Below, piece by piece: positions 39,754-58,561 of a stretch of DNA of 64,000 nucleotides; position 1 is the first letter of the stretch; each line of letters opens with the position of its first letter. The position numbers and the translations under genes are program-made. Under the pieces are notes generated by a model. The model worked only from the letters and a program-made list of their open reading frames with translations, made no database searches and was not told where the DNA came from. The stretch is from Deltaproteobacteria bacterium (lineage in GTDB: Bacteria; Desulfobacterota; DSM-4660; Desulfatiglandales; Desulfatiglandaceae). Location of the stretch: assembly GCA_021737785.1 (NCBI GenBank), contig JAIPDI010000009.1:1-64000 (forward strand), in the 5' to 3' direction.

Positions 39754-40035
39754 TCTGAACAGGAGCGATGAATATAGAATGGAAAAAATCTTGTTGAACC
39801 GAGACACGAAAAGGATATTGTTTTGCTTTGATCCTGGAAGAAGGGTCCCGGGAAAAACCCCTTTATGTGTTTTGTCTTTGTTTACCCCGCCTGCCCTGTT
39901 CAATTCCGAAGGACAGCGCAGCGTATTTACACAGGGTAGCTTCGGAAAATGGTACGGGGTGTGAGTCCCGCCTGGCGGGATTGGTTGCGGGTATCCGCGT
40001 TAGAAAATTACTCGGCTGACAAAGGAGGAAAGGAA

Positions 40036-40740
40036 ATGAATGGAGAAATCCATCAACTGGATCAGTTTCGCAACCAGTCGTTCATATTTGCGGATCGTTC
40101 TGAGGCCGGGAGGACCCTTGGCCTGATGCTGCAGCCGGAGTACGAGCATATCGAGGAAGGCATGGTTCTGGCGATTCCTTCCGGAGGCGTCCCGGTGGGG
40201 CTAAGGGTGAAGGAGATATTGGGTCTCCCCTTTGATTTGATGATTGTGCGGAAGTTGCAGATTCCCGGCAATCCCGAGGCCGGTTTCGGTGCGATGATGC
40301 TGAATGGCACGGTCTTCTATAATGAACGGCTTCTGTCGGAACTCCGATTACGCCCGGGGCAGATTGACGCTGAAAAAGAACGGGTGGGCGCAGAGCTCGA
40401 AAAGCGAAACCTCCTGTTCCGAAAAGGACGTCCCTTTCCCGATCTTTCAGGGAAAAGGGTCATCCTGGTAGATGACGGGCTGGCCTCCGGATTTACCATG
40501 CTGGCCTCCATCGCAATGGCAAAAAAAGCAAACCCGCGTGAAACGATTGTGGCGGTGCCCACGGCCCCCCAACGTACCGTAGATCGCATCCGACCGGAAG
40601 TGAATAAGATCTACTGTGCCAATATCAGAACCACGGCCACCTTTGCCGTGGCCGAGGCCTATCAAGATTGGTATGATCTGAGCGAACAAGAGGTCCTGGA
40701 CATGCTGGTTGATCGCGGGTCCCCAAGAGACCCGTCTTGA
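40036..40740 (+). CDS. Phosphoribosyltransferase family protein
   Basis: The 234-residue protein starts at an ATG with GGAGG in front. The fold of type I phosphoribosyltransferases is shown by the PRPP motif V-I-L-V-D-D-G-L-A-S-G-F-T-M (about 140-153) and the early V-L-A-I-P-S-G-G-V-P-V-G loop. It opens with F-R-N-Q-S-F-I-F-A-D-R-S-E-A-G-R, as in stand-alone members that are often found beside stress genes. The substrate base is not evident. Homologues occur in the mycobacterial DosR regulon, next to a class II RNR, and an nrdJ gene is 1.3 kb away here. Confidence 0.9.
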   Translation: MNGEIHQLDQFRNQSFIFADRSEAGRTLGLMLQPEYEHIEEGMVLAIPSGGVPVGLRVKEILGLPFDLMIVRKLQIPGNPEAGFGAMMLNGTVFYNERLLSELRLRPGQIDAEKERVGAELEKRNLLFRKGRPFPDLSGKRVILVDDGLASGFTMLASIAMAKKANPRETIVAVPTAPQRTVDRIRPEVNKIYCANIRTTATFAVAEAYQDWYDLSEQEVLDMLVDRGSPRDPS

Positions 40741-40797: not shown

Positions 40798-41298
40798 TTA
40801 ACCGGGAACATGAGGTATCTGTTCCATAACCGATAGACCCCTCCGCTGCATGATTCGGCTGAGGGTTTCGATATCCTTCTCGAACTTCTGTCTCACCTTT
40901 GGAAACCGCATGGCTGCGGCAGGATGGTAAGTTTCCACGTATTCGATCTTTTCCGACCGTGGGGTGTTCCAGGCCACTCTCCCCATGAGGACCATAATCC
41001 ATGGATCGATTTCCTTGATTTCCCGCACCAGATCGGGCATCCAGCGATTGATTTCATCTGAAGCAGGCTTTCTGTTTTTCGGTGTGGGTTCCTTGACAAC
41101 GCACGTCAGGTATAGTTGCTTCCGATCAATTCCCTTTTCCTTGAGCACGCGATTAAGGTATTTGCCCGCCATTCCCACAAAGGGTCGACCCTGCTTTACC
41201 TCTTCTCTCCCCGGATTCTGTCCCACCAGCATGACCCTGGCATTTTTCGGTCCTTCAGCGAATCGGGATCCATTCAAGGCATGTTTCGAAACTCCCAT
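40798..41298 (-). CDS. Uracil-DNA glycosylase-like protein lacking the Fe-S ligands
   Basis: A 166-residue protein of the family 4 uracil-DNA glycosylase group. Motif A, V-G-Q-N-P-G-R-E-E at 25-33, with G-R-P-F-V-G-M-A-G, and the motif B-like H-P-A-A-A near 125 are in place. Family 4 enzymes carry four cysteines for a [4Fe-4S] cluster; here only C66 exists. The K-C-R-P position is K-E-P (E70) and the later cysteine is replaced near W86-M87, while the N-terminal C-x2-C is absent. The start is fixed by an in-frame TGA just upstream and GGAG. It may be a cluster-free variant or inactive. Confidence 0.82.
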   Translation of the reverse strand: MGVSKHALNGSRFAEGPKNARVMLVGQNPGREEVKQGRPFVGMAGKYLNRVLKEKGIDRKQLYLTCVVKEPTPKNRKPASDEINRWMPDLVREIKEIDPWIMVLMGRVAWNTPRSEKIEYVETYHPAAAMRFPKVRQKFEKDIETLSRIMQRRGLSVMEQIPHVPG

Positions 41299-41359
41299 AT
41301 CTCATTCTCCGGCAGATGATGCCCTCTTCATTGCTATACCAAAACAAGCGAATTATCCT

Positions 41360-41488
41360 TTTCAACTTCTGAGCGGTTACCCCCTTCAACATCTCCGCGC
41401 TGTGTATATCGACGGATCGGATCTTTTTGTGAAGTGCAATGGATGATAGATACTGCTTGAAAATCTCCACATCCGGAAGTTCAGGCAT
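41360..41488 (-). pseudogene. Duplicated 5' fragment of fpg/mutM
   Basis: From the ATG at 41488 the frame reads M-P-E-L-P-D-V-E-I-F-K-Q-Y-L as in the full gene at 44586 and stays nearly identical for about 43 codons, then diverges and runs into unrelated sequence ending at 41255. The homology includes the upstream region to about 41588. Lacking the catalytic core and zinc finger, it cannot be an active glycosylase. Confidence 0.85.
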
Positions 41489-41588
41489 GATGCGTTCTCC
41501 CCTGATTCTCAATCCAATACAGTTCCGGGTTTCAAGATTCACGCTCGATCGATTATTGGGATGAACATGTCCTCCCAAGGCGACTTCA
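41360..41588. repeat. Direct repeat unit shared with 44458-44684
   Basis: About 229 bp covering the fpg promoter-proximal region and first 43 codons are repeated here in the same orientation as at 44458-44684, with roughly 15 differences. In the other copy the dispersed-repeat hairpin follows at once; here the remnant CCCAAGGCGACTTCAAGCC follows. Confidence 0.85.
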
Positions 41589-41996: not shown

Positions 41997-43772
41997 ATGA
42001 CACATCTTGAACTGTCAGATAACGCCCAGGCTGTGTTGAGAGCAAGATATCTCATGCGGGATCGGAACTTGAACATCGTCGAAACCCCTGCCGAGCTTTT
42101 CCGTCGAGTTGCCCGCCATATTGCCCAGGCCGAACTTATCATCGGAACCTCCGCTGACGCCGAGCGATGGCAGGAGATCTTTCTCCAGATGCTGACCTCA
42201 CTGGATTTCCTGCCCAACAGCCCCACCCTGATGAACGCGGGCACGTCCATGGGGCAGCTAAGTGCCTGTTTCGTCATTCCGGTGGAGGACACCATGGAAG
42301 GAATATTCAATGCCCTGAAACAGATGGCCCTGGTTCAGCGCAGCGGTGGGGGAGCCGGCTTCTCGTTTTCAAAACTGCGGCCCGCCTCCGATCCCATCGT
42401 TTCAACAGGGGGAGAGGCCTCTGGCCCTGTTTCTTTCATGAAGATATTCGACTGTACGACCACCTATATTAAGCAGGGCGGGAAACGTCGGGGCGCCAAT
42501 ATGGGTGTGTTGCGTGTGGATCATCCGGATATCCTGGATTTCATCCGGGCCAAAGAGGATGGCCAGATTTTGCGGAATTTCAATCTATCCGTGGCAGTGA
42601 CCCATTCGTTTATGAATGCCGTCATGGAAGACGATTCGTATGATCTGGTACATCCAGCCGACGGACATGTGACGGCACGGATAAAGGCTGCCGATGTGTT
42701 TCAAGAGATCGTTCAGGCGGCCTGGCAAACAGGGGACCCAGGTCTCCTGTTTATGGACACGGTCAATCAGGCCAATCCGACACCCCATGTCGGGTACATC
42801 GAGGCCACCAATCCCTGTGGCGAAATACCGCTCCTGGGTTATGAATCATGTAACCTGGGATCTATTAATCTCTCCCACATGCTAAAAGACAACGGCAAAA
42901 GAATTAATATGGACAAACTCCTTTCTACGGTCCGCCAAGGAGTCCGTTTTTTGGATAATGTCATTTCCGTTAATCGCTATCCTGTTCGGGAAATCGAAAC
43001 CGCCACAAAGGGAAACCGAAAAATAGGATTGGGCGTCATGGGTTTCAGCGAAATGCTCATCCGCATGGGGATTTCTTATGCCTCAGAGGAGGCCGAAGAG
43101 ACTGCATCATATATTATGCAACATGTCAATAAAGAAGCGTTGCGGACCTCAAAAGAACTTGCAGCCGAGAGGGGGCATTATCCCAACTGGAAAGGGAGTG
43201 TTCATGACGAAAAGGGGATTTCCGTCCGCAATGCAACTCGTACCGCCATCGCCCCCACCGGCACCATCGGAATTATTGCCGATACCACGCCTAGCATCGA
43301 GCCTCTTTTTGCCCTTGCCTACCGGCGCGTGAATGTTCTGGAAAATGATGATCTCCAAGAAGTCAACCCCCTGTTCAGGAAGTATGCCGACAAAAACCAT
43401 CTGAATACGGAGCACCTGGTGGAACAGATTATGGAAAAGGGAACGCTTAAGGAAGTGAAAGGTGTCCCGGAAGACATGAAACACATTTTCATGACGGCCC
43501 TGGAAATTCCAATTGAACGACATCTGGCAATACAGGCCGCCTTTCAACGCCATGTGGACAACTCCGTCTCCAAAACCGTCAATATACCCGAGGATGCGAC
43601 GCCGTCGGACGTCTCCAATGCGTACCGCAGGGCCTGGATGTTGGGGTTGAAAGGCATAGCTATTTATCGTTACGGCAGCCGATCGGAGCAGGTCCTCCAG
43701 TTGGGGGCGAAGGAACGGACCTACACCTATGCTCATGGTTCCAAGTGCGATCCGGAGGAATGCCGGATTTAA
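41997..43772 (+). CDS. nrdJ: Adenosylcobalamin-dependent (class II) ribonucleotide reductase
   Basis: The 591-residue enzyme makes deoxyribonucleotides without oxygen dependence. The catalytic cysteines are C91 (L-S-A-C-F-V), C274 in N-P-C-G-E (thiyl radical) and C285 in Y-E-S-C-N-L-G-S; the P-T-G-T-I segment binds phosphate. The C-terminus ends with C-D-P-E-E-C, a likely redox pair regenerated by thioredoxin. It is shorter than the ~750-residue NrdJ with zinc-ribbon tail and resembles the short NrdZ/NrdJ form. ATG start with GAGGAGAGG upstream. No other RNR class or cobalamin riboswitch is seen. Three dyad elements precede it. Confidence 0.94.
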   Translation: MTHLELSDNAQAVLRARYLMRDRNLNIVETPAELFRRVARHIAQAELIIGTSADAERWQEIFLQMLTSLDFLPNSPTLMNAGTSMGQLSACFVIPVEDTMEGIFNALKQMALVQRSGGGAGFSFSKLRPASDPIVSTGGEASGPVSFMKIFDCTTTYIKQGGKRRGANMGVLRVDHPDILDFIRAKEDGQILRNFNLSVAVTHSFMNAVMEDDSYDLVHPADGHVTARIKAADVFQEIVQAAWQTGDPGLLFMDTVNQANPTPHVGYIEATNPCGEIPLLGYESCNLGSINLSHMLKDNGKRINMDKLLSTVRQGVRFLDNVISVNRYPVREIETATKGNRKIGLGVMGFSEMLIRMGISYASEEAEETASYIMQHVNKEALRTSKELAAERGHYPNWKGSVHDEKGISVRNATRTAIAPTGTIGIIADTTPSIEPLFALAYRRVNVLENDDLQEVNPLFRKYADKNHLNTEHLVEQIMEKGTLKEVKGVPEDMKHIFMTALEIPIERHLAIQAAFQRHVDNSVSKTVNIPEDATPSDVSNAYRRAWMLGLKGIAIYRYGSRSEQVLQLGAKERTYTYAHGSKCDPEECRI

Positions 43773-43791: not shown

Positions 43792-44586
43792 TCAGCCCTT
43801 CTGGCAGCGTGGACAATAGTAAGCGGTCCGCCCGCCAATTTTGCTGTTTTCGATTTTACCATCGCATTTCGGGCAGGTGCCGTCGCCGTATCGATGGGGT
43901 ATGATGAAGGTGGAGGGGAGGTGATCGGGATCTGCCCGGGCGTCTATGGCAGTCCTGAGGACACGTTTCATCTGCGAGTACAACGTCGTAAGATCATCTT
44001 CATCCAGTTCACTGCTCCGGGTCTCGGGATGTATGCCTGCCTGGAAAAGAATCTCATCAGAATACACATTGCCGATCCCGGCGATGAATTTCTGGTTCAT
44101 CAGGGCGGATTTTATCATTGCACGGGTCTTTTTCAAGGTCTCTTTAAACCGATCCACATTGAAGCCCGGTTCAAGGGCATCCGGCCCTAATTCCTTTTCT
44201 TGGATAAACACTTCCGGGGCATCAGTAAGCGCAATCTCTCCCAGTTTTCTCTGACAGTCATACGCCAGCCGATAGCCGTTGGAAAAATGGATGAGGAGCC
44301 TTTCGTGCGCCGGTTCCCGGGCGGTGTTCTTGAAATACTTGAGAAAGCCTGTCATGCCGAAATGGAGGACCAGCCATTTTTTGCTCTCCGCCATTTCCAC
44401 GAAAAGATACTTGCCGTGTCGTCGGGTCGATATGAAGCGCTCGCCTTTCAGGGTTTTTTTCAACTTCTGAGCGGTTATCCCCTTCAACAGCTCCGCGCTG
44501 TGTATATCGACGGATCGGATCTTTTTGTGAAGTGCAGTGGATGATAGATACTGCTTGAAAATCTCCACATCCGGAAGTTCAGGCAT
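43792..44586 (-). CDS. mutM: Formamidopyrimidine-DNA glycosylase (Fpg)
   Basis: The 264-residue DNA-repair enzyme removes oxidised purines and nicks the abasic site. The mature N-terminus P-E-L-P-D-V-E (catalytic proline and glutamate), the R-R-H-G-K-Y-L lysine loop (about 55-61), the helix-two-turn-helix with K-F-I-A-G-I-G-N-V-Y-S-D-E and the C-terminal zinc finger C-P-K-C...C-P-R-C are all present. The start at 44586 is set by the M-P-E-L motif. The stop lies 20 bp after that of nrdJ, converging. Two dyad elements and a dispersed-repeat copy lie upstream. Confidence 0.95.
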   Translation of the reverse strand: MPELPDVEIFKQYLSSTALHKKIRSVDIHSAELLKGITAQKLKKTLKGERFISTRRHGKYLFVEMAESKKWLVLHFGMTGFLKYFKNTAREPAHERLLIHFSNGYRLAYDCQRKLGEIALTDAPEVFIQEKELGPDALEPGFNVDRFKETLKKTRAMIKSALMNQKFIAGIGNVYSDEILFQAGIHPETRSSELDEDDLTTLYSQMKRVLRTAIDARADPDHLPSTFIIPHRYGDGTCPKCDGKIENSKIGGRTAYYCPRCQKG

Positions 44587-44683
44587 GATGCGTTCTCCCC
44601 TGATTCTCAATCCAATACAGTTCAGGCTTTCAAGATTCACGCGCGATCGATTATTGGGATGGACATCTCCTCCCAAGGCGGCC

Positions 44684-44778
44684 TGACAGCCGCAACCAAA
44701 CAGGTTTTACCTAAGTCCCGGAAGCGTTCTGGACGCCCTGGGGGTCTCTGCCCAAGAGCTGCAATAAAATGCGGACCA
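44684..44778 (+). repeat. Dispersed structured repeat, copy 2 (shortened)
   Basis: It begins with the GGCGGC-CTGACA-GCCGC hairpin and runs through GGAAGCGTTCTGGACGCC to GAGCTGCAATAAAATGCGG, where it diverges from copies 1 and 3. It directly follows the block duplicated at 41360-41588, on the upstream side of fpg. Confidence 0.8.
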
Positions 44779-49175: not shown

Positions 49176-49270
49176 CACCTTCATCTGCCTTTCCAACTAT
49201 TATGAGATAACGTACGGGGTGATGTTGCCTGAGATTCAGGTGATTTTTTTTATGCCAGGAGGTGCATGAC

Positions 49271-49909
49271 ATGCTCACAGATGACAAGGCCAGAGAACGG
49301 ATGGTCTCCGAACAGCTTATTCCTCGCGGGATTAAAGACCCAAGGGTCCTGCACGCCATGGCCCAGGTCCCCAGACACCGCTTCGTGGGGGGGGGAAGGG
49401 TGAGTCAGGCCTATATGGACAGTCCCCTTCCCATAGATGAGGGACAGACCATATCACAGCCTTACATGGTTGCCCTCATGACCGAAGCGCTGGAATTGAA
49501 AGGGGACGAAAAGACCCTGGAAATCGGTACGGGAAGCGGTTATCAAACCGCTATTCTGGCTGAACTCTGCGCCCGGGTCTATACAGTGGAGCGGATATCG
49601 GAACTTCAGATTAAGGCCCGTGAAATCCTGGAATCATTGGGGTACACCAACATCTTTTTCAAAACGGTCAACGGGACTTTGGGATGGGAGGAACAAAAAC
49701 CCTACGATGCCATCATCGTCACCGCGGGCGCCCCCCGGATCCCCACGCCCCTTGTCGATCAACTGGCTGAGGGAGGACGAATGGTCATCCCGATAGGAGA
49801 CAGGGTCTCTCAGGAACTCACAAAAATCCGTAAACACGCCGGCGAAATATCGAGTGAAAGTCTGGGAGGATGCCGCTTTGTGGCGTTGCTGGGGGAATAT
49901 GGCTGGTAG
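49271..49909 (+). CDS. pcm: Protein-L-isoaspartate O-methyltransferase
   Basis: The 212-residue enzyme uses S-adenosylmethionine to start repair of damaged aspartyl residues in aged proteins. The family opening D-D-K-A-R-E-R-M-V-x5-P-R-G-I, the SAM motif T-L-E-I-G-T-G-S-G-Y-Q-T-A (about 77-89), V-Y-T-V-E-R and D-A-I-I-V-T-A-G-A-P are complete. The ATG at 49271 has AGGAGG eight bases before; a GTG at 49262 lies too close to it. A repair enzyme of this type fits a survival regulon, and two dyad elements lie upstream. Confidence 0.95.
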   Translation: MLTDDKARERMVSEQLIPRGIKDPRVLHAMAQVPRHRFVGGGRVSQAYMDSPLPIDEGQTISQPYMVALMTEALELKGDEKTLEIGTGSGYQTAILAELCARVYTVERISELQIKAREILESLGYTNIFFKTVNGTLGWEEQKPYDAIIVTAGAPRIPTPLVDQLAEGGRMVIPIGDRVSQELTKIRKHAGEISSESLGGCRFVALLGEYGW

Positions 49910-56968: not shown

Positions 56969-57241
56969 TTAACACCCGTCGGGAAAATATTCCGGGAGCA
57001 GCATGAATATCTTTTCCCATCCCTGGGGTCCCACAACCAACTTTTTCTCTCCCTGTTGAAAGGAATAGGCTTCACAGTAGCGCAATACCTCGGGATGATC
57101 CGAAGCTAATTTTTTCCACAGATTCTGTGGATAATTCGATTCTGTGACAGCACAAATGGCATCCACCACTGACATCTTGCCGTCTGCTGTTGACTGGATG
57201 GAAACGCCGTTGAATTCCAATTCAAGATCCGGTTCAGTCAT
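56969..57241 (-). CDS. Small BRO-N-like protein
   Basis: The 90-residue protein has beta strands L-E-L-E-F-N-G-V-S-I, then S-V-V-D-A-I-C-A-V-T-E-S-N-Y-P-Q-N-L-W-K-K-L, resembling the Bro-N/antirepressor fold where a D-V-x-x-A-V...W-x-x-L pattern binds DNA. The remaining part is G-P-Q-G-W-E-K-I-F-M-L-L-P-E-Y-F. It is not within any visible phage remnant. It lies 150 bp upstream of the acyl-activating gene and has a dyad element 126 bp before its ATG. DNA binding is a possibility only. Confidence 0.7.
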   Translation of the reverse strand: MTEPDLELEFNGVSIQSTADGKMSVVDAICAVTESNYPQNLWKKLASDHPEVLRYCEAYSFQQGEKKLVVGPQGWEKIFMLLPEYFPDGC

Positions 57242-57671: not shown

Positions 57672-57818
57672 TCCCCAAGACGGCCTAACAACCGCAACCC
57701 AAAAGGTTTCACCTAAGTCTCGGAAGCGTTCTGGACGCCCGTGGGGGTCTCTGCCCAAGAGCTGCAATAAAATGCGGTCGTATCGTTCGGCGGCCGCCCC
57801 CGGGCTCCGAATAATGTT
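57672..57818 (+). repeat. Dispersed structured repeat, copy 3
   Basis: It matches the reverse complement of 1-150 almost base for base, from the GACGGCCTAACAACCGC hairpin region through GGGGGTCTCTGCCC to GCGGCCGCCCCCGGGCTCCG. The block GAGACCCCCACGGGC recurs once more at 57951-57965. No open frame is conserved among copies. Confidence 0.85.
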
Positions 57819-58017: not shown

Positions 58018-58446
58018 TTATTTGTGCAACCGAGGGCGGGAATCTATCACCGTGCCGACCCATGTGATAATATCCCTCAGTCTTTGAGGCGCCAGTTCCT
58101 TTAACTCACCATAGGTGAGCCAGCGATATTCATGGTGCTCCGGTCTTCCGATCTCCGGGTTAACGGAAAAGACCACCTGAAGGGTGCGGGTTTCAGCAAC
58201 ATAATATCTGGCGACCTTCTTTCCGCCGGAATAGGGTCTGGTTTCCCGATAAATATATCCCCAGCAGAAGCGCAGATCAGATATCCCGGTCTCTTCCCGG
58301 ACCTCTCTTTTTGCCGCGTCCAGAGGATCTTCGCCCGGCTCCACCACTCCTTTTGGAAAATCCCAGTTTCGAAAAGCCCTGAGAAACAGGTATTTCCATG
58401 TTTTTTCCTGTAGTCTCACCGGTATGATTCCTGCTGAAAGCACCAT
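58018..58446 (-). CDS. NUDIX hydrolase
   Basis: The ATG at 58446 has GGGGAG about nine bases before, giving 142 residues. The Nudix box G-V-V-E-P-G-E-D-P-L-D-A-A-K-R-E-V-R-E-E-T-G-I (about 34-56) is complete, so it should hydrolyse a nucleoside diphosphate derivative with Mg. It resembles diadenosine tetraphosphate hydrolase-like proteins (W-D-F-P-K-G before the box and the E-Y-R-W-L segment late). It stands alone between repeat sequences; the upstream region has a REP-like hairpin. Confidence 0.9.
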   Translation of the reverse strand: MVLSAGIIPVRLQEKTWKYLFLRAFRNWDFPKGVVEPGEDPLDAAKREVREETGISDLRFCWGYIYRETRPYSGGKKVARYYVAETRTLQVVFSVNPEIGRPEHHEYRWLTYGELKELAPQRLRDIITWVGTVIDSRPRLHK

Positions 58447-58561
58447 GCGTCCGGATCTCCCCACTGATATCGAGGTTGGATAATGTTAGTACATTATCGC
58501 CCAGTTTTCTGTCACAAGAAACAAGAAAGTATGGCCATCCTTCCACTGCACGCTTGGCCTT

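Follow-up and report, generated by a model that had tools for sequence, protein, structure and literature searches.

What remains of a family 4 uracil-DNA glycosylase (UDG) once every ligand of its Fe-S cluster is gone? The question is raised by an intact 166-aa reading frame that runs from an ATG at 41298 to 40798 on the minus strand of the window, by which we mean the whole 64,000-nucleotide stretch of bacterial DNA analysed here. An in-frame stop lies two codons ahead of the ATG, so the frame is not extendable in the 5' direction, and GGAGA stands 7 nt ahead of the start. The gene is stand-alone, not fused to a DNA polymerase, and its product matches the Pfam UDG family (PF03167) with 98.6 bits at a gathering cut-off of 24.3, which places it within the superfamily and agrees with an earlier sequence-only reading that had recognised a UDG-domain protein in this frame without naming its strand. 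More specific models all score below cut-off: the two NCBIfam models for family 4 (TIGR00758, 113.5 bits against 125.3; NF040953, 123.7 against 250), the UdgX model (TIGR03914, 81.5 against 189.95) and that for E. coli-type MUG (NF007570, 17.2 against 144).

Cluster ligands and the uracil-reading position

We read the ligand positions against the family 4 sequences of Thermus thermophilus (Tth), Sulfolobus tokodaii and T. maritima and 49 other rows. None of the four cluster ligands is present in the 166-aa protein, and the N-terminal segment with its CxxC is missing altogether (Table 1). The sequence-only reading had reported GQNPGREE (26-33), GRPFVG (37-42) and HPAAA (125-129), a single cysteine at C66, E70 at the K-C position and no Cys N-terminal of motif 1, all of which the sequence and the alignment confirm. 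Its remark that Q27 is a replacement also stands, with the addition that the E-A/G doublet is changed at both positions, to Q27-N28. What it missed is the site that C66 occupies: TCVVKE aligns with TNIVKC in Tth, placing the cysteine at the uracil-reading Asn, Tth N80. Judged from this alignment, the sole cysteine marks a second and more consequential loss, that of the uracil-reading Asn itself.

The same pattern recurs in each of the four cluster-free members of our 50-row residue table. Cluster ligands number 0 in each row, Asn80 is gone from all four and replaced by a small residue (C in the window gene, otherwise G, P or A), the third ligand position holds E or V, and motif 1 reads GQNPG throughout. 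Equally invariant in the four are E33, F40, N75 and H125, which correspond to Tth E47, F54, N89 and H155. Set beside what defines family 4, the protein lacks the four-Cys set, the GE(A/G)PG form of motif 1 and the Asn at N80, and falls short of the NCBIfam cut-offs; it has the equivalents of N89, H155, E47 and F54. With these four features lacking, the protein should not be classed with the family 4 UDGa enzymes. Asn80 is also replaced, by S, G or T, in eight rows of the table that retain all four Cys, so its loss is not tied to loss of the cluster. Two family 4 genes from the same phylum (L052, L055), canonical in other respects, have Ser (VVKS) as the third ligand; replacement of a single ligand thus also happens elsewhere.

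Table 1. Positions in the window of the cluster-free gene, its diagnostic residues and the neighbouring features discussed in the text
Feature	Position	Strand	Basis or remark
Cluster-free UDG-fold gene, 166 aa	40798..41298	minus	ORF call and Pfam
Motif 1 GQNPGREE, residues 26-33; QN replaces E-G/A doublet	41200..41223	minus	sequence and residue table
C66, sole Cys, at uracil-reading Asn position (Tth N80)	41101..41103	minus	alignment
E70, third cluster-ligand position	41089..41091	minus	alignment
N75, equivalent of water-positioning Asn Tth N89	41074..41076	minus	alignment
W86, fourth cluster-ligand position; Trp in 4/4 cluster-free members	41041..41043	minus	alignment
H125 of HPAAAMR, equivalent of catalytic Tth H155	40924..40926	minus	alignment
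Phosphoribosyltransferase adjoining UDG gene	39949..40740	plus	homologue on G011 UDG contig, 58%
224-bp duplicate (96%) of fpg leader and first 43 codons; truncated fpg	41359..41582 (source 44457-44680)	minus	Fapy_DNA_glyco 26.8 bits
Intact fpg (Fapy N-terminal, H2TH and zinc-finger domains)	43792..44586	minus	Pfam
Protein-isoaspartate methyltransferase	49262..49909	plus	homologue beside G053 UDG gene, 64%
Orphan 90-aa protein, no Pfam match	56969..57241	minus	homologue on G011 UDG contig, 56%
NUDIX hydrolase	58018..58464	minus	homologue directly after UDG gene in G011, 72%

An AlphaFold2 model built with a 13-row alignment (pLDDT 89.1, pTM 0.83) finds its best solved match in Thermus family 4 UDGa (1UI0/1UI1; Z 20.7, 2.0 A over 149 residues), closely followed by S. 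tokodaii family 4 (4ZBX; Z 20.6). UdgX follows at about 18-19, then Thermus 2d3y (15.6), a phage polymerase domain (14.4) and TDG/MUG at about 13 (MUG of E. coli, 13.5). To family 4 the protein is thus alike in fold, in GRPFVG and in its four catalytic equivalents, and differs in the absent ligands, CxxC segment and Asn80 and in having QN where family 4 has EG or EA. E. coli MUG, of family 2, is the weaker match in both fold and model score, and lacks the motif 2 His that the 166-aa protein carries (PMC5387724).

The six pairwise comparisons of the cluster-free genes give 0.67-0.83 synonymous and 0.24-0.28 non-synonymous differences per site (pN/pS 0.29-0.38); the genes are under purifying selection.

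A compact branch and its scattered members

A tree of 50 rows, comprising 47 hand-thinned distinct matches and three phage polymerase domains, was calculated without the columns of the loop, the ligands, the motif 1 doublet and N80; the matches omitted from it were either canonical family 4 genes or duplicates of a locus already represented. The stretch from G106 to H125 is 20 residues long in 24/24 compact rows and 34-39 in the 26 others, so that the loop of the 166-aa protein is about 15 residues shorter than that of the long-loop rows. All 24 compact rows form one clade (support 98/94; 96/95 after two long phage rows are dropped), and nested within it the four cluster-free rows form another (100/99). 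The tree of cluster-less homologues that the sequence-only reading had proposed as a check therefore returns a real clade. Recent duplication of the family 4 gene in the host itself was also considered as origin and rejected: a clade of the cluster-free and the 13 delta-type canonical rows has an AU p of 0.009.

Ligand states differ within the compact branch, with four Cys in 2 rows, CCHC in 18 and none in 4. The CCHC rows (L036-L038, L040, L041, L043, L044, L076-L086) are Bathyarchaeial except L037, and outside the cluster-free genes the compact lineage is seen mainly in Bathyarchaeia. These archaeal relatives, Bathyarchaeial CCHC and methanoarchaeal four-Cys, share with the 166-aa protein the 20-aa loop, GQNPG and mostly HPxAAMR, and differ in having CxxC, a His or Cys at the third ligand position and Cys at the fourth. 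They differ also at Asn80, which is Asn in 18/18 CCHC rows and Ser in the 2 others; the argument for an altered base choice developed below accordingly concerns the four bacterial genes only. A His at the third position occurs in the UdgX alignment as well, so the CCHC set is not without parallel. Forty residues are invariant across 13 compact rows. Forks within the branch are drawn open, the order of losses having no support in the tree.

How widely is the cluster-free gene distributed? When 60 relatives and the window's own genome were searched, two orthologues (65% and 60%) were returned, with all other matches below 90 bits. Across the window's order it occurs in 3/85 genomes and 3/47 genera, and is absent from the two congeners. 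In a phylum sample 10/395 genomes passed the threshold, two of them (the window's genome, G000, and G011) with the cluster-free gene and eight with long-loop genes. The members are three genera of the window's order and a Desulfonatronospira MAG, around which 2/296 genomes passed (one of them G449, the record of G011) and in whose order 1/150 did. A contig scan of the genome collection confirmed 12 loci among 47 pattern matches: three cluster-free (L033, the gene of G011; L035, the gene of G053; and the additional L034), six Bathyarchaeota by title, one titled only 'bacterium' (L037) and two of methanoarchaeal type (L039, L042). Thresholds were passed by 17/300 genomes in the phylum of one Bathyarchaeon (13 compact, 4 long-loop), 2/115 in the phylum of L039's genome and 1/144 in the class of the 'bacterium' genome. 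IMG/VR yielded no cluster-free relative, its 4 loci from 66 pattern matches all having cluster Cys and long loops.

The orthologues in three other lineages are 55-62% identical to the window's protein and share its losses, which argues that the cluster-free state is not a product of chance. The gene is patchily scattered among Thermodesulfobacteriota, and we infer horizontal transfer. A second UDG-superfamily gene is present in three of the four hosts (the window's genome, G011 and G053), and that in the window's own genome is a four-Cys family 4 gene; no other PF03167 match was found in the Desulfonatronospira MAG, the completeness of which is unstated. Where searched, the CCHC compact UDG is mostly the sole UDG-superfamily match of its genome, and the compact gene is the sole match in 8/9 other compact-type genomes. 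There is precedent for a cluster-free MutY. Literature searches for cluster-free family 4 UDGs and for Bathyarchaeota UDGs returned no report of a cluster-free family 4 UDG at title and abstract level, subscription papers being mostly out of reach.

Gene neighbourhood

The UDG gene is flanked on one side by a phosphoribosyltransferase and on the other by the truncated fpg duplicate, with the intact fpg 2.5 kb further upstream. The duplicate, which lies just upstream of the UDG gene, may supply the promoter. A short ribonucleotide reductase large chain (591 aa, 41997-43772) lies between the UDG and fpg genes. A dispersed repeat of ~103 bp occurs at 44672-44774, 57674-57777 and 36-138 (78-96% identity); 40 places were scored of 165 candidates in the genome, and one copy immediately precedes fpg. 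Rfam gave no match to the window above gathering score, and PADLOC gave 0 matches to defence genes.

On its 7-kb UDG contig, G011 has homologues of the window's phosphoribosyltransferase (58%), NUDIX hydrolase (72%) and 90-aa orphan (56%) besides the UDG itself, and also desulfoferrodoxin, BON and CBS proteins. The 19.9 kb adjoining the UDG gene of G053 hold homologues of a P-type ATPase (77%), a thioredoxin reductase-like protein (about 61%), the isoaspartate methyltransferase (64%) and others that are weaker; none occurs in the 19.9 kb and 6.5 kb that follow on the same contig, and on the L034 contig only the UDG gene is common with the window. In this small comparison of three contigs, the homologues near the G011 and G053 genes point to related stress-type gene islands in these hosts. 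The sequence-only reading had proposed that shedding the cluster was an adaptation to oxidative stress. Against this, the same 64 kb encode a 4Fe-4S dicluster protein, a DHODB-type Fe-S domain and subunits of hydrogenase and pyruvate:ferredoxin oxidoreductase type, so the island does not consistently avoid clusters, and the same genome retains its four-Cys family 4 gene. Loss of the cluster through oxidative stress, though possible, is therefore not supported.

Candidate function and its alternatives

Published mutants bear unequally on the two losses. Cys-to-Ser replacement costs a family 4 enzyme 40% of its activity, and a family 5 enzyme keeps 60% after removal of 46 N-terminal residues, a part that MUG does without (PMC5295032); on the portions of that paper available, the cluster is dispensable for chemistry. 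Tth N80 makes two hydrogen bonds to uracil, at N3/O4, and N80A lowers k2/Km about 44-fold (PMC5387724, Table 1), while UdgX N91A is folded yet inactive and MUG has Lys there (PMC10776899). As far as these excerpts go, the N80 site is not dispensable. The motif 1 doublet is harder to judge: Tth E41Q alone drops 888-fold, E41Q-G42D, a QD doublet, just 5-fold (PMC5387724), and a QN doublet in family 4 does not appear in the available parts of that paper (G42N, 0 occurrences). That the single mutant is nearly dead, with no QN counterpart in those parts, weakens any claim of activity. In MUG the motif 1 Asn binds water (PMC5387724; PMC10776899).

Taken together, these data suggest a glycosylase with weak or context-dependent activity on uracil and possibly other substrates. 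The reading that we favour, by a little over even chances, is a functioning cluster-free DNA glycosylase, derived from family 4 via the compact lineage, with altered base choice. On the aligned residues, uracil reading has probably been lost and damaged-base excision likely remains, with ordinary uracil not the main substrate; base choice would be weakened and probably mismatch-directed or broadened, convergent on MUG. A family 4 ancestor would have lost its CxxC segment, both ligands in the loop (position 70 is now E or V, the other W86) and the Asn that reads uracil, and H125, which would stabilise the leaving base, N75, positioning the water, E33 as C5 gate and F40 for stacking would have been retained. 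The extra motif 1 Asn, N28, would sit where MUG has its water-binding Asn. A flipped base would then stack on F40, with its O2 bound by H125 and by the backbone of motif 1, and water placed by N75 and/or N28 would carry out hydrolysis. Without an N3/O4 reader, uracil excision would be weak and probably depend on which base lies opposite, with G:U far ahead of A:U and of single-stranded DNA, or else the choice of C5-unsubstituted bases would be wider, as in MUG. In three of the four hosts the enzyme would act beside a canonical family 4 gene. Of the sequence-only proposal of a family 4-like UDG without a cluster, the family 4-derived fold and the missing cluster hold; the idea of a UDG simply minus its cluster is not supported, since the N80 reader is lost too (PMC5387724, PMC10776899). 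The protein is a derived, cluster-free branch of the family 4 lineage and most likely acts as a MUG-leaning glycosylase.

A more specific form of this reading, which we put forward tentatively and think rather unlikely, is that a family 4 lineage converged on the MUG design, shedding cluster and uracil-reading Asn and gaining the motif 1 Asn, and so came to act on mismatches or adducts. With its N3/N4 side emptied, the pocket could accommodate exocyclic adducts, for example 3,N4-ethenocytosine, which reference titles in PMC10776899 give as a MUG substrate; E33 would still bar C5-methylated bases, and the CCHC archaeal relatives would represent a half-way state.

The protein might instead be an ordinary uracil glycosylase that dropped a structural cluster, with H125, N75 and the QN doublet compensating for Asn80. 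The catalytic His and water Asn retained in all four members would fit, as would the small cost of cluster removal in cluster-bearing enzymes (PMC5295032), a workable Gln doublet in family 4 (E41Q-G42D, PMC5387724) and the MAG, of unstated completeness, with no other PF03167 match. All four members nevertheless lack the N3/O4 reader, uracil activity drops 44-fold in the equivalent Tth mutant and vanishes in that of UdgX in the published excerpts, and three of the four genomes have a second superfamily gene; we regard this account as unlikely, though deserving real weight. Loss of Asn80 could alternatively mean an inactive protein, and a non-enzymatic or DNA-binding role, like that presumed for the SPO1 polymerase domain, seems improbable to us. 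The N-terminal UDG-like domain of SPO1 gp31 likewise lacks the four ligands and Asn80, and a joint clade with it is not rejected by the AU test (p 0.09). The sequence-only reading had named such clustering as the outcome that would count against an enzyme; the domain stands apart in the tree, is fused to DNA polymerase and has a 34-35 aa loop and QENPF as motif 1, where the cluster-free gene is stand-alone with 20 residues, the loop length being a separation independent of the tree. Invariant catalytic residues and purifying selection also speak against a non-enzymatic role, and the SPO1 domain, its inactivity only presumed, itself retains the motif 2 His. Among 52 matching records of the phage database, three domains were examined: SPO1 (L095) lacks the ligands, and LysYB1 and MW202455 retain Cys. 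With Cys retained in a Lysinibacillus phage relative (L097), the SPO1 loss is apparently a separate one.

An abasic-site cross-linking protein of UdgX type is very improbable. UdgX shares the family 4-like fold, has a motif 1 Gln one position later (GEQPG) and, like the archaeal relatives, has His as its third ligand-position residue (PMC10359453). The R-loop (KRRIH) that bears its cross-linking His (PMC10359453) is nevertheless missing here, as are the cluster ligands, Asn stands in place of that His, and the TIGR03914 score is far below cut-off. A broken gene or frameshift artefact is scarcely credible, even with a truncated fpg copy adjoining the gene, as the losses are common to four lineages with pN/pS well below one. 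Loss of the CxxC segment by frameshift was rejected specifically: the 152 nt ahead of the gene encode no CxxC in whichever frame they are read, and the three other lineages agree.

Why family 4 UDGs carry an Fe-S cluster, for structural support or for DNA-mediated redox signalling, is not settled in the available text of PMC9266487. A natural, selected cluster-free protein, with four-Cys, CCHC and zero-ligand kin on one branch, makes the role of the cluster testable without engineered mutants, and the accompanying loss of the uracil reader offers a direct and cheap test of a change of base choice in the UDG superfamily. If the lineage did converge on MUG, the archaeal Cys3-His relatives would be a natural half-way state in which to study how a cluster is lost.
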